DNA of 64,000 bases from contig PKDQ01000011.1 in assembly GCA_002862645.1 (NCBI GenBank), forward strand, positions 1 to 64,000, in the 5' to 3' direction. Within the stretch, counting starts at the first letter, position 1, and each line of letters opens with the position of its first letter. Positions 53,520-58,531 of the stretch are shown piece by piece. The notes beneath the pieces were generated by a model, which had not been told where the DNA came from, searched no databases, and saw nothing but the letters and a program-made list of their open reading frames with translations. Both the position numbers and the translations under genes were made by a program. Source of the DNA: Flavobacteriaceae bacterium. GTDB taxonomy: Bacteria; Bacteroidota; Bacteroidia; Flavobacteriales; Flavobacteriaceae.

Positions 53520-54149
53520 ATGCAAGAGTTTATAGATATTCTTTTTGCCCAGTATACCACATATGCGCCCCTAGATATTACGTTAGAAATTATTGCATTA
53601 ATATTTGGGTTTCTAAGTGTTTGGTTTGCCAAACAGAATAACATTTGGGTGTTTCCAACAGGCCTTATTTCCACAGGAATATTTGTTTATTTGTTATACA
53701 ACTGGGCACTACTAGGAGATATGCTGATTAACGCCTACTATTTTGTCATGAGTATTTATGGTTGGTACATATGGACCCGAAAAACAGATGACGATTTTAC
53801 CCCTATATCACGCACCACAGCATTAGAAAAAAAGACTTCAGCCCTGATTTTTTTAACCACTCTCTTATTTGTTTATGCAGTATATCAGTCGGCTGATAAG
53901 TGGACCTCTTGGACGGCCGTTGTAGATACATGCACCACAGCTATATTTTTTGTAGGGATGTGGTTAATGGCGCGCAGAAAAATTGAAAATTGGCTTTTTT
54001 GGATTGTTGGTGATGTCATATCAGTCCCCTTATACTTTTATAAAGGACTTACTCTTACCTCCATTCAATACCTTATATTTACAGTCATTGCCATTTATGG
54101 ATATTTAGCATGGAAGAAAGCCTTAAGCAACACTCAAGCAGCTGTATAA
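53520..54149 (+). CDS. pnuC: PnuC-family vitamin transporter
   Basis: Membrane transporter of the PnuC/SWEET-like fold, moving nicotinamide riboside, thiamine or riboflavin by facilitated diffusion. Seven or eight hydrophobic segments in 209 aa; the signature W158-x2-W161-x3-D165 is in 'ENWLFWIVGDVIS'. Given the kinase that follows and the TPP riboswitch two genes on, a thiamine role (PnuT) is likely, but nicotinamide riboside cannot be excluded. The kinase gene overlaps by 40 nt. Confidence 0.88.
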   Translation: MQEFIDILFAQYTTYAPLDITLEIIALIFGFLSVWFAKQNNIWVFPTGLISTGIFVYLLYNWALLGDMLINAYYFVMSIYGWYIWTRKTDDDFTPISRTTALEKKTSALIFLTTLLFVYAVYQSADKWTSWTAVVDTCTTAIFFVGMWLMARRKIENWLFWIVGDVISVPLYFYKGLTLTSIQYLIFTVIAIYGYLAWKKALSNTQAAV

Positions 54150-54667
54150 GAGTTGTTTTTTTTGGACCTGAATCTACTGGGAAGACTACACTGGCTAAGG
54201 GGCTAGCTGAAATATATCAAACGAGATGGGTGCCCGAATTTGCACGTGAATACCTTGAAGAAAAACTAGAGCGAACTGGAGAAATATGTGCACCAGAAGA
54301 CATTTGGCCCATAGCTGTAGGGCAAATGAAATTAGAAAATAAAGCAGCCCAACATGGCAATACATTTTTGTTTTGTGACACAAACGTACTTACTACAGAA
54401 GTATATGCAAAAGCTTATTTTGATGGTTGGTGTGACACACGTCTTTTGGAAGCAAACAAAGTAAATCACTACGACATATACTTTTTAACCGATATTAACG
54501 TTCCTTTTGAAGAAGACTTGTTACGCGATCGTCCCCATCAACGCCAAGAGATGTTAGCCGCGTTTAAAAATGCGCTAAACGAATACAAAATTACCTACGT
54601 CATTTTAAAAGGTTCTTATGAGGCACGCATTTTGCAAGTCACGGACTATTTAAAACAATATGTATGA
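54110..54667 (+). CDS. NadR-like P-loop kinase
   Basis: 185 aa with a P-loop G19-P-E-S-T-G-K-T and 'LFCDTNVLTTEVYAKAYF', as in the ribosylnicotinamide kinase domain of NadR. It would phosphorylate and trap the vitamin brought in by PnuC. The N-terminal adenylyltransferase and repressor domains of NadR are absent. The substrate is uncertain: nicotinamide riboside by homology, thiamine by context. It overlaps pnuC by 40 nt and DUF4301 by 4 nt. Confidence 0.82.
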   Translation: MEESLKQHSSSCIRVVFFGPESTGKTTLAKGLAEIYQTRWVPEFAREYLEEKLERTGEICAPEDIWPIAVGQMKLENKAAQHGNTFLFCDTNVLTTEVYAKAYFDGWCDTRLLEANKVNHYDIYFLTDINVPFEEDLLRDRPHQRQEMLAAFKNALNEYKITYVILKGSYEARILQVTDYLKQYV

Positions 54668-56184
54668 AACATCGTTTTACGAAACAAGATTTAGCGCTCT
54701 TTGAAGATATTGGCATCTCACCGAATGATGTAGCAGTACAACTTGCCCTACTTGAAAAAGAAGCCAATGCTACCAACCTAGTTAGGCCAGCCACTGATGG
54801 AGACGGTATTCGAGTGTTAACCCAACAACAAATGCTTAACTATGCAAAGCTATTTGATCAAGAAAAGGCTTCGTTTTCAATGGTTCGCTTTATACCAGCG
54901 TCTGGATTAGCAACTCGCATGTTTAAATTCCTTCATTATTTCATAAAACGTTATGACGTTGAAAAGGAAACCTTACGTAGCTATCTCAACAGAAAAAAAA
55001 CATACAAACTTGCCATCTTTTTGGGGGGGCTTGAAAAATTCCCTTTTTATCAAAGCTTAAAAGCGCAAATAAAAGAACTTCAGAATGGTGCTTTTCAACA
55101 AGACTACAGGAACTTGTTCATTCAAAAAACGGTAACACTTTTAAGTAAATTACCCAAAGCACTTATTCCCTTTCATAATTACAGTGGAAATACGAGAACT
55201 GCAGCAGCTGAACAATTGTTTTTTTCAAAAGAATTCATGGTTTCGGAAGAGGCTATGAATATTCATTTTACGATACCGCCAAAATCAAATAAAGCATTTG
55301 AGGAGTCGCTTTCAGATAGTATTGAAGAAATAAGCAAATCCGAAGCGATTCAATCGCATGTGTCCTATTCCAATCAAAAAAGAAGTACAGACTCCATTGC
55401 TGTTAATATGGACAACAGTCTATATCGCAATCAACATGGAAACCTCTTTTTTAGGGCAGCAGGCCATGGGGCGCTAATTGACAACCTGAACGACTTAGAC
55501 GAGGCTGTTGTTTTTTTAAGCAATATTGACAATGTTGCTGTTGCATCTTTTCACAAAAAAGCAGGTTTTTATAAAAAGATATTGGCTGGTGTACTGCTAT
55601 CTACACTTAAGCAAATCTACAAGTTCAGTAAGGCACTGGAGCGTCGTGATTTTACAGATTTGAATACGATTAAAATATTCGTTCAAAACCATCTTAATGT
55701 AAACGTTCCAAAAAATGTTTCTGATGATGCATTGCAGGAATTCTTACAACATAAACTCAACCGACCATTGCGTGTGTGTGGTATGGTTAAAAATGAAGGC
55801 GAACCTGGCGGAGGTCCTTTTTGGGTTGAAAAATCAGGTCAGACTAGCCTTCAAATTGTCGAGAGCGCACAAGTCAATATGTCAAACCCTGATCAAAAAG
55901 ATGTTTTTAAGTCAGGGACGCACTTTAACCCAGTAGATATTGTGTGTGCTATCTATGGCCATAACGGCAACAAATACGATTTGAAAAATTTCGTGGACAA
56001 TGACAGTTACTTTGTGGTTGAAAAATCCTTGGGTGAGGCAGCTATTAAAGCCATAGAACGTCCTGGATTGTGGAACGGCGGTATGGCTGATTGGAACACT
56101 ATTTTTGTGGAGGTACCTGTCCGTACGTTTAACCCTGTAAAAACGGTAAATGATTTGTTGCGACCCATGCATCAATTGATTTAA
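54664..56184 (+). CDS. DUF4301 family protein
   Basis: 506 aa, a Bacteroidota-specific family of unknown function. Motifs visible: 'VRFIPASGLATRMFK' near residue 80, 'FHNYSGNTRTAAAEQL', 'FFRAAGHGALIDNLNDLD' and 'THFNPVDIVC'. The glycine-rich first motif and 'GHGALIDNLND' recall nucleotidyl-transferase-like folds, but I would not name an activity. It starts on the ATGA overlap with the kinase and ends just before the TPP riboswitch promoter. Confidence 0.8.
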   Translation: MKHRFTKQDLALFEDIGISPNDVAVQLALLEKEANATNLVRPATDGDGIRVLTQQQMLNYAKLFDQEKASFSMVRFIPASGLATRMFKFLHYFIKRYDVEKETLRSYLNRKKTYKLAIFLGGLEKFPFYQSLKAQIKELQNGAFQQDYRNLFIQKTVTLLSKLPKALIPFHNYSGNTRTAAAEQLFFSKEFMVSEEAMNIHFTIPPKSNKAFEESLSDSIEEISKSEAIQSHVSYSNQKRSTDSIAVNMDNSLYRNQHGNLFFRAAGHGALIDNLNDLDEAVVFLSNIDNVAVASFHKKAGFYKKILAGVLLSTLKQIYKFSKALERRDFTDLNTIKIFVQNHLNVNVPKNVSDDALQEFLQHKLNRPLRVCGMVKNEGEPGGGPFWVEKSGQTSLQIVESAQVNMSNPDQKDVFKSGTHFNPVDIVCAIYGHNGNKYDLKNFVDNDSYFVVEKSLGEAAIKAIERPGLWNGGMADWNTIFVEVPVRTFNPVKTVNDLLRPMHQLI

Positions 56185-56190
56185 TTGCCC

Positions 56191-56198
56191 TATATTTG
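56191..56198 (+). promoter_or_regulatory. -7 promoter box of the riboswitch-TonB receptor unit
   Basis: TATATTTG fits TAnnTTTG; transcription would start near 56203, at the first base of the riboswitch P1 stem. No TTG at the 20-nt spacing. Confidence 0.6.
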
Positions 56199-56201
56199 TA
56201 C

Positions 56202-56325
56202 TATCTCTAGGGGTGCTTAACGGCTGAGATTATACCCATTGAACCTGGGCAGGTAATGCTGCAAAGGAATATGTTTCACTTTAAAACCATCGTAAATAAT
56301 ACCCCTTTATTTGCTTCACGCAAAT
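56202..56325 (+). promoter_or_regulatory. TPP riboswitch (THI element) with a start-codon hairpin
   Basis: The aptamer covers 56202-56271. P1 TATCTCT (56202-56208) pairs with AGGAATA (56265-56271, one mismatch). The conserved GGGGTGC (56210-56216), CTGAGA (56224-56229), ACCC (56234-56237), GAACCTGG (56241-56248) and GGTAATGC (56252-56259) are all present, with a minimal P3. Downstream, ATTTGC (56309-56314) pairs with GCAAAT (56320-56325), which includes the first two bases of the ATG. There is no T-run, so control is probably at translation. ACCCCT (56301-56306) is also complementary to aptamer AGGGGT (56209-56214), giving a possible alternative pairing. Confidence 0.93.
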
Positions 56326-58531
56326 GAAATACATTATTACACTTATGTTTGGTTGCAGCCTGCTGGCGCAACAAACAAACACCACACAAGACACACTCAC
56401 CTTAAGTACTGTAACCCTATCAACGGTTACAGTTAGCGCCCTTCGGGCTAGTGAAGCCACGCCTATGGCGTTTACTAATATCTCTGCAAAGGAGCTGAAC
56501 AAACAAAACTTAGGAAAAGACCTTCCTTTTTTGATCCGCTTTTTACCCAGTGTAGTAACTACTAGCGACGCAGGTGCTGGAGTTGGATATACTGGTATTA
56601 GAGTTCGAGGTAGCGACGCTACCAGAGTTAACGTTACCATTAACGGTATTGCTTATAACGATGCCGAATCCCACGGAACCTTTTGGGTAAATCTTTCTGA
56701 TTTCGCCTCTTCTGTTTCCGACTTGCAACTCCAACGTGGCGTAGGTACATCCACCAATGGTGCTGCTGCTTTTGGCGCCAGTATTAATATCAACACCACC
56801 GAGCCATCAGAGGATGTGTATGCTTTGTTGTCTTCTAGCGCTGGTAGCTTTAATACCTTTAAGAACACAATTAAATTCTCAACGGGATTATCTGAAAGTG
56901 GCTTTGAGTTAAGCGGACGCCTATCGCGCATAACTTCCGATGGCTATATTGATCGCGCATTATCTAACCTTAAAGGCTATTTCTTACAAGGAACTTATAA
57001 CAGTGTCAATACTAAAATCAAAGCCTTGACCTTTGGCGGTCATGAGCGCACTTACCAAGCGTGGTATGGGATTGATCAGGATGTTTTGAAAGAGAACAGA
57101 ACGTATAACCCAGCTGGAGAACAGTATGACGAATCAGGCGTATTAGAAGGCTATTACAATGATCAAGTTGATAATTACAATCAAGATCACACCCAATTGT
57201 ATATCGAACAGCGTCTAAGCAACTCCAGTAGGTTGTCACTTGGGCTGAACTATACCCATGGCTATGGTTATTACCAAGAGTTTTACGATTTGTGGTATGA
57301 TCAAAACGTAAGTTTTGGAGGAGATACAGCTTACGACTATTTAAAATTACAGCCACGTATAATCAATGGACAAAGTATTACAGCCACTGAAAATGCAGTG
57401 CGCAAATGGTTAGACAACGATTTTTATGCAGCCAATCTGCAGTATCATTATAAAAAAGGCAAGCACAACATAAGCGCAGGTGCTTATTATAGTTCTTATG
57501 TAGGATTACACTTTGGCGCACTTATGTGGGCCAATAATGCTGATGTGAATCCAGGTCATCGTTTTTATGAAAATACAGGAAAGAAAAAAGACGGCAATAT
57601 TTTTTACAAGTGGGATGTATCCCTTGATGAAAAATGGCATTTATATGCCGATGCACAACTTCGTTGGATAGACTACAAGGTTAGTGGTGAAGTCTCAGGA
57701 CCTGAACGTTTTGCCGTAAACGACATCCATACGTTTTTTAACCCTAAAGCAGGCCTGTTGTACAAGCCCAATACCAACAACCAGTTTTATATCTCTTTTG
57801 CCAAGGCACATAAAGAGGCAAACCGCACTGATTTTGAAAATGGAAGCCCTGTTCCTGAGGTATTAGACGATTTAGAATTGGGATGGCGCTGGAAAACAGA
57901 CGATGCCTTTTTAAACACAAATATTTATTTTATGAGTTACAAGAACCAGTTGGTCCTTACGGGAGCCATTGACCAAGTGGGCGCATCTATACGTGCCAAT
58001 TCTGGAGACAGCTACCGACGCGGCATTGAGCTAGAGGGCGGATGGCATATTACCTCCAATTTAAATTGGCAAGCCAATGTGACATGGAGTAAAAACAGAA
58101 ATAAGGACAAGTACTTTAAACGGGATGGCGTTTTACAGTCATTGGGGGATACGCATTTGGCATTTTCTCCTTCGATGGTTGCTTCACAGCAATTGACATA
58201 CACAGCAAACAATTGGTCTGTTTCGTTTGTGAGTAAGTATGTGGGAGAACAGTACATGGGAAATATAGATGCAGAACTCTCTAATTTGGAAAGTTATTTG
58301 ATAAATGACATTCAACTTCAGGCTCGGCTGCTACATAATGAAGGAGGACCTAGCCTAAATCTAAACGTGCATTTGCACAATATTTTTGATGAATTGATAA
58401 GCTCAAACGGGTATTTCTATACCTACGACGATGATTATTCTGTGCCAAATGTTGTGACTACTATTGAAGGGGTAGGGTATTATCCACAGGCAGGCCGCCA
58501 TTTTATGGCAGGACTTACATTACAGTTCTAA
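56324..58531 (+). CDS. TonB-dependent receptor under TPP riboswitch control (probable thiamine receptor)
   Basis: 735 aa with a short signal peptide ('MKYIITLMFGCSLLAQQ'), a TonB box region ('TVTVSALRASEATP'), a plug (about 45-165, 'VRVRGSDATRVNVTINGI'-like segment) and a barrel ending 'MAGLTLQF'. The riboswitch in its leader means expression falls when thiamine diphosphate is plentiful, so the ligand is most likely thiamine or a thiamine compound; receptors with this leader are known in Bacteroidota (Omr1). The ATG forms part of the leader hairpin. It overlaps the convergent lipoprotein gene by 4 nt. Confidence 0.92.
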   Translation: MKYIITLMFGCSLLAQQTNTTQDTLTLSTVTLSTVTVSALRASEATPMAFTNISAKELNKQNLGKDLPFLIRFLPSVVTTSDAGAGVGYTGIRVRGSDATRVNVTINGIAYNDAESHGTFWVNLSDFASSVSDLQLQRGVGTSTNGAAAFGASININTTEPSEDVYALLSSSAGSFNTFKNTIKFSTGLSESGFELSGRLSRITSDGYIDRALSNLKGYFLQGTYNSVNTKIKALTFGGHERTYQAWYGIDQDVLKENRTYNPAGEQYDESGVLEGYYNDQVDNYNQDHTQLYIEQRLSNSSRLSLGLNYTHGYGYYQEFYDLWYDQNVSFGGDTAYDYLKLQPRIINGQSITATENAVRKWLDNDFYAANLQYHYKKGKHNISAGAYYSSYVGLHFGALMWANNADVNPGHRFYENTGKKKDGNIFYKWDVSLDEKWHLYADAQLRWIDYKVSGEVSGPERFAVNDIHTFFNPKAGLLYKPNTNNQFYISFAKAHKEANRTDFENGSPVPEVLDDLELGWRWKTDDAFLNTNIYFMSYKNQLVLTGAIDQVGASIRANSGDSYRRGIELEGGWHITSNLNWQANVTWSKNRNKDKYFKRDGVLQSLGDTHLAFSPSMVASQQLTYTANNWSVSFVSKYVGEQYMGNIDAELSNLESYLINDIQLQARLLHNEGGPSLNLNVHLHNIFDELISSNGYFYTYDDDYSVPNVVTTIEGVGYYPQAGRHFMAGLTLQF

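Follow-up and report, generated by a model that had tools for sequence, protein, structure and literature searches.

The leader and its genomic setting

The window, the whole 64,000-nucleotide stretch of DNA that was analysed, lies in an incomplete genome of 1.4 Mb (80.5% completeness) and contains a gene for a TonB-dependent receptor preceded by a TPP-type aptamer (Table 1). The receptor finds its best named matches, at no more than 58% identity, in MAGs and single cells labelled 'Flavobacteriaceae' or 'Bacteroidetes'; very close records may be missing from this comparison, which would place the window near Flavobacteriaceae. On the 5' side of the leader and on the same strand, a cluster at 53520-56184 also encodes a NadR-like AAA kinase and a DUF4301 protein (Pfam/NCBIfam). 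Across 89 receptor loci, examined with flanks of up to 4 kb (1.5 kb for nine loci), a PnuT-like gene was found in 53, the kinase in 51 and the DUF4301 gene in 54. Since the transporter, kinase and DUF4301 genes lie upstream and recur beside the receptor, the riboswitch appears to sit inside a cluster while acting on the receptor alone. A small convergent gene at 58528-58968 matches nothing in Pfam or NCBIfam, and homologues of it lie beside the receptor in 74 of the 89 loci. ThiC was not found in any of the 17 genus genomes searched, the window's own included and all of them incomplete, which fits a reliance on uptake. Thiamine would be the substrate of the receptor. One record titled Klebsiella pneumoniae (a MAG, L088) carries a receptor and leader that are Flavobacterium-like and is probably a mislabelled bin.

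Table 1. Positions of the receptor, its leader elements and the upstream transporter gene in the window
Feature	Position	Strand	Basis or remark
PnuC/PnuT-family transporter	53520..54149	+	PF04973, TIGR01528; upstream neighbour, not behind the leader
Probable -7 promoter box TATATTTG (TAnnTTTG)	56191..56198	+	Bacteroidota box; position conserved before GGGG
TPP aptamer match (RF00059)	56199..56286	+	40.0 bits, cut-off 54.3; P1 columns unpaired
AGGGGUG, 5' strand of P2, proposed switching strand	56209..56215	+	7-nt complement of loop 56300-56306
ACCC, 3' strand of P2	56234..56237	+	P2 position from Rfam alignment
Strand A GUAAAUAA, left arm of relay hairpin	56292..56299	+	A:B -3.8 kcal/mol; partner-swap test
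Loop UACCCCU, complementary to 5' P2 strand	56300..56306	+	Sits in A:B hairpin loop
Strand B UUAUUUGC, common to A:B and B:C	56307..56314	+	Pairing energies
Strand C GCAAAUGAA, holds start codon	56320..56328	+	Pairs with 56306-56314, -6.8 kcal/mol; partner-swap test
TonB-dependent receptor, 735 aa	56324..58531	+	ORF; PF07715 (plug) and PF00593 (barrel); start codon 56324-56326

The aptamer match spans the RF00059 model end to end, with an E-value of 9.5e-7 in a scan of 251 nt and of 1.3e-6 genome-wide, where it is the sole match at E ≤ 0.001. It stays below the gathering score, a threshold set by the curators, and at gathering scores Rfam returns only one tRNA in the window. The core elements P2, J3/2 (CUGAGA) and P4/P5 (GAACCUG..UAAUGC) are nevertheless present in the Rfam alignment, and with the plug and barrel domains downstream they bear out the earlier note, which had placed a TPP aptamer before an outer-membrane receptor. 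Among relatives, 54 of 60 have an RF00059 match at E ≤ 0.1 and 16 of 60 one above the cut-off. When these matches were joined by position to those of receptors, 45 of the 48 receptor-adjacent copies fell under the cut-off (30.8-50.9 bits) and the remaining three exceeded it (57.8, 58.9 and 60.5 bits). All 80 named receptor loci have a TPP-like motif upstream, and five leaders (L110, L112, L121, L129 and L145) carry long aptamer insertions between GGGG and CUGAGA. By core sequence and context the element is a TPP riboswitch, the RNA of which would itself bind TPP.

The place of P1 and the predicted start of the transcript

Reviews describe TPP riboswitches as regulated through the P1 helix (PMC11477058, in the portion available), with the 3' strand of P1 entering an alternative structure. 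In the window, the P1 columns of the Rfam alignment form no pairs, and the aptamer strand with a complement in the platform is the 5' strand of P2. In a set of 117 distinct receptor leaders from Flavobacteriales, the helices at the P1 position scored -0.62 with their own partners and -0.51 with swapped ones (p = 0.11). Four base pairs and -2 kcal/mol at this place are reached by 13 of these 117 leaders, by 7 of 25 from other Bacteroidia (p = 0.09) and by 6 of 12 from other classes of the phylum, as assigned from leaders and proteins (p = 0.049). The thiS-type set comprises the high-scoring leaders L002-L013 (12, of which nine were parsed; the three that were checked all precede thiS), and all nine have 5-6 bp at the place of P1, which are weaker than -2 because they are A-U rich; their strands are invariant, so that the swap test is uninformative there. 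Among 139 Flavobacteriales receptor leaders, UCUC stands just before P2 in 121 (56203-56208 in the window) and GGGA at the 3' end of the aptamer in 99, and the two could form a short P1 remnant of 3-4 bp. Since the Rfam cut-off is not reached, P1 is not detected and the switching feature of P1 was not found, we call the element a TPP riboswitch variant.

Positions 56191-56198, which open the stretch described in the earlier note, fit the -7 box of Bacteroidota, a match that the note does not list, and are probably promoter and not RNA. TAnnTTTG occurs within 45 nt upstream of GGGG in 129 of the 139 Flavobacteriales receptor leaders, at 11-16 nt in 125 of these, and in 27 of 966 control windows farther upstream. 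The motif is common anyway (102 in the window against 83 expected), so the evidence lies in its conserved place. The F. psychrophilum box spans -12 to -5 (PMC9723704, as given in the part of that paper available), so a box at 56191-56198 predicts an RNA start at about 56203, 7 nt before GGGG; judged by their promoter boxes, transcripts of this kind would begin 7-12 nt before P2.

Pairings of the expression platform and their conservation

Downstream of the aptamer, three pairings can be read from the sequence and its comparison with other leaders, as can their mutual exclusion and the position of the start codon within strand C. A and B form a hairpin of 8 bp that presents the 7-nt loop UACCCCU, B and C form a stem of 9 bp when 56306 is counted, and the loop pairs with AGGGGUG of P2 at -10.1 kcal/mol as a plain duplex. 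B can thus be held by A or by C, and the 5' strand of P2 by its own 3' strand or by the loop. The letters and coordinates on which the earlier note had built its model are correct, both for AGGGGTG (56209-56215), ACCC (56234-56237) and ACCCCT (56301-56306) and for ATTTGC (56309-56314), GCAAAT (56320-56325) and ATG (56324-56326), and the sequence supports its proposal that ACCCCU competes with ACCC for the 5' strand of P2. A form common in Flavobacteriaceae reads GAAUAA-loop-UUAUUCG..CGAAUGAA, where AAAGGGGU stands opposite ACCCCUUU or AAAAAGGGGU opposite ACCUCUUUUU.

We compared 193 distinct leaders; by HMM, 182 of them stand before a receptor and 11 do not, and some loci were left unparsed. 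A full relay was defined as a loop-bearing hairpin together with a loop pairing of -6 or lower and a start stem of -2 or lower that overlaps B. Of the 139 Flavobacteriales receptor leaders, 102 have it (0.2 expected from shuffles) and 37 do not; by group, it is found in 13/13 leaders of the window's own genus (0.01 expected), 89/126 of other Flavobacteriales (0.19), 1/26 of other Bacteroidia (0.21) and 0/17 of other classes (0.12). Against dinucleotide shuffles at p ≤ 0.05, the anti-P2 match alone stands out in 4 of the 13 own-genus leaders, and its carrier hairpin and the start-codon stem in all 13, in line with the earlier note's placement of the start codon within a hairpin; in the 126 other Flavobacteriales leaders the corresponding counts are 100, 116 and 89, and since the best of up to four in-frame ATGs was taken for real leaders and that same ATG for their shuffles, the real data are somewhat favoured. 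The first ATG was retained in 12 of 13 own-genus and 113 of 126 other Flavobacteriales leaders. Homologous leaders therefore keep the two pairings of the earlier note, the loss of which would have spoken against it.

Covariation, which that note had named as a further check, supports the pairings in one form and is mixed in the other. In a MAFFT alignment of 130 of the 139 leaders, A:B pairs are formed in 90-98% of leaders in six of seven fixed columns and in 28% in the seventh, and B:C pairs in 68-96%; when the partner is deliberately slid along, the share is 31-63%. Changes along the tree comprise 9 compensatory and 29 breaking ones for A:B and 22 and 102 for B:C; four columns lie clearly above column shuffles and most are no better than these, since the core is nearly invariant. 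Given this mixed outcome, we turned to partner swaps, with one representative per cluster: the anti-P2 4-mer is present in 162 of 165 Bacteroidia leaders, which gave 48 representatives. A:B scored -2.74 with own partners against -0.36 with swapped ones (p ≤ 0.0002, n = 48) and is formed in 26 of the 48, compared with 6.1 for permuted partners and 8.5 for shuffled flanks; the counts are 15/26 against 4.2 permuted in Flavobacteriales and 11/22 against 3.8 in other Bacteroidia. For B:C, the 33 representatives with suitable spacing gave -4.04 against -2.45 (p ≤ 0.0001), a signal that holds for Flavobacteriales taken separately (n = 23, p ≤ 0.0001) but finds no support among the ten representatives from other Bacteroidia (p = 0.12). 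The P2:loop pairing gave -6.67 against -5.94 (p = 0.0007, n = 48), a modest difference attributable to the invariance of its core.

Of 100 family genomes, 39 carry the exact motif, each as a single copy and with no match to the reversed pattern, and it lies directly 5' of the receptor in all six genomes where the position of the receptor is known (G017, G023, G027, G028, G034 and G191). Separately, strand A is also complementary to the coding start (56327-56357) in many leaders. Pairing of strand A with codons 3-8 gave p = 0.002 in Flavobacteriales representatives (n = 23) and p = 0.015 in all representatives (n = 33), and synonymous recoding picked out only 13 of 134 leaders, so that the complementarity may be regarded as a weakly supported lead.

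A proposed kinetic switch and its alternatives

The predicted structure of the leader informs on how these pairings could be used. The 151-nt leader does not fold with unusual stability (z = -0.74; 48 of 200 shuffles equal or better), and its minimum-energy fold holds P2:ACCCCU and the start-codon hairpin simultaneously, so neither excludes the other. In an equilibrium model of 103 relay leaders, which contains neither coaxial stacking nor loop geometry, the median is -8.4 for B:C and -1.4 for A:B. Imposing the P2:loop contact raises the probability of an open AUG more than fivefold in 94 of the 103 leaders, but the median still reaches only 0.001-0.006 (0.009 in the window). Since B:C wins at equilibrium even with the contact in place, a switch would need co-transcriptional kinetics or stacking that the model leaves out; provided that the model is not far off, the open state has to be a kinetic one. 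Strands A and B and the loop emerge from the polymerase ahead of C, and A:B with its P2 contact could therefore form first.

We consider it probable that the leader senses TPP and acts as a translational OFF switch on the gene of a thiamine receptor, through the strand A relay and the 5' strand of P2. With TPP bound, the aptamer would shut P2 (GGGU:ACCC) and leave the ACCCCU loop without a partner; the weak A:B hairpin would then yield, B would join C and the start codon would be buried. With no TPP, the 5' strand of P2 would bind the ACCCCU loop of the A:B hairpin and hold B off C during transcription, which would make ribosome loading possible. Bacteroidota do without Shine-Dalgarno (SD) sequences, the usual target hidden by translational switches. 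In F. johnsoniae, which lacks them, translation is tuned by RNA structure near the start codon (PMC6847099, according to the section of that paper available).

The scheme has partial counterparts among known riboswitches. It shares with the THI element of the E. coli thiM/thiC type (RF00059) the core motifs, the aptamer fold, the site before a vitamin B1-type gene and the logic of sequestor and antisequestor at translation; it differs in that P1 is undetectable in the window leader and the platform pairs with the 5' strand of P2. The cobalamin riboswitch with its L5-L13 kissing loop likewise governs translation through base pairing between the aptamer and the loop of a platform hairpin (PMC10907184). 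There the ligand promotes this contact, which hides the ribosome site, whereas in the window leader the ligand should break it, and an open start should be favoured as long as the contact lasts. In kissing-loop platforms two hairpin loops are joined by 5-7 Watson-Crick pairs; in the window leader the loop meets one strand of an aptamer helix, so the P2:loop contact acts like a loop-loop contact without being one. The TPP riboswitch before the outer-membrane thiamine receptor of B. thetaiotaomicron, OMthi (BT2390), resembles the window locus in that position, by its published description in the part of PMC5613172 available.

Start-codon burial might also act at the RNA level, through Rho-dependent termination or decay after translation has been blocked. 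Dual-type TPP riboswitches are known (quoted in PMC10907184), but in B. thetaiotaomicron, a distant relative, receptor-operon RNA shows no significant thiamine response in the available part of a 2017 study that calls the mode of action uncertain (PMC5613172), and we regard this route as unlikely. An RNA-seq survey reports, in its available part, transcriptional activity in only 6 of 57 TPP riboswitches and in none from Bacteroides (PMC12121620), which, like the B. thetaiotaomicron result, speaks for the translational reading given above. Quite unlikely, in our assessment, is the simpler switch of the earlier note, in which ACCCCU opens the aptamer without TPP, the start-codon hairpin prevails with TPP and strand A is idle. 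Both of its pairings are present and conserved, and to that extent the model stands; yet the two form together in the minimum-energy fold, so that one does not govern the other, the equilibrium model keeps the AUG paired in the P2:loop state, and A:B carries a partner-swap signal of its own. Since P2:ACCCCU alone fails to free the start codon, exclusion requires strand A, which the earlier note did not include.

It is highly improbable that the aptamer has decayed or is too weak to switch and that the start hairpin merely sets a low basal rate: the score under the cut-off, the undetectable P1 and the closed state at equilibrium point that way, but sub-cut-off scores are usual for receptor-adjacent copies and the core motifs and platform are retained across the order. 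We find it scarcely credible that the inverted repeat GAATAA..TTATTC serves a transcription factor as a DNA operator: it does lie close to the gene start but also downstream of the predicted RNA start, occurs once per genome where the exact motif is found, has arms that differ in sequence in other families while staying self-complementary, and has a loop that matches the aptamer.

Returning to the TPP-sensing relay, its features could extend to a distinct P1-less architecture of receptor-type TPP riboswitches in Flavobacteriales, a generalisation that we hold as open to doubt as to belief. In such an architecture the mRNA would start almost at P2, and the 5'-terminal P2 strand would serve both as part of the sensor helix and as switching strand by kissing the relay-hairpin loop, the relay hairpin being in turn a competitor of the start-codon hairpin; this would be a non-equilibrium switch for bacteria without SD sequences. 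Where classes of the phylum do use the SD, this aptamer strand would be opposed by a CCUCC-like anti-SD, which would point to a single logic applied to two targets. Among receptor leaders from other classes (L196-L213), 9 of 17 have an SD-like GGAGG or AGGAG before an in-frame ATG together with CCTCC, CTCCT or CCTCT within 60 nt upstream, a strand that could pair with the SD or with GGGG of the aptamer.

The scheme can be tested by mutation, fits much of a large order and proposes P2 in place of P1 as the switching helix in a very common riboswitch class. It also hints at why the Rfam cut-off misses most receptor-adjacent copies in relatives, and it bears on the action of TPP riboswitches in Bacteroidetes, which was called uncertain in 2017. 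Bacteroides TPP riboswitches reportedly regulate transcription or translation, to go by the title of a 2019 preprint. Whole TPP riboswitches were analysed for covariation in a 2026 study, whose TPP model was built from 48 terminator-bearing sequences reaching 40-45 nt past the aptamer, and neither 'Bacteroid' nor 'Flavobacter' appears in its main text. We found no description of such a platform among openly licensed papers, a scope that does not show its absence from the literature.

A different arrangement is seen in thiS-type leaders. A 12-nt match within the start hairpin is found in only two of nine (L002 and L011), and it was thus rejected as a general form; the other seven have weaker matches in which the arrangement is not recognised, save for a partial one in L008. 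In L002 and L011, where the downstream gene encodes ThiS by Pfam, the start codon lies in a hairpin whose 5' arm CAUUCCUAAAGU is complementary to ACUUUAGGGGUG of the aptamer (5' strand of P1/P2) over 12 positions, G-U included, and these two leaders may possibly represent a simpler start-codon switch.
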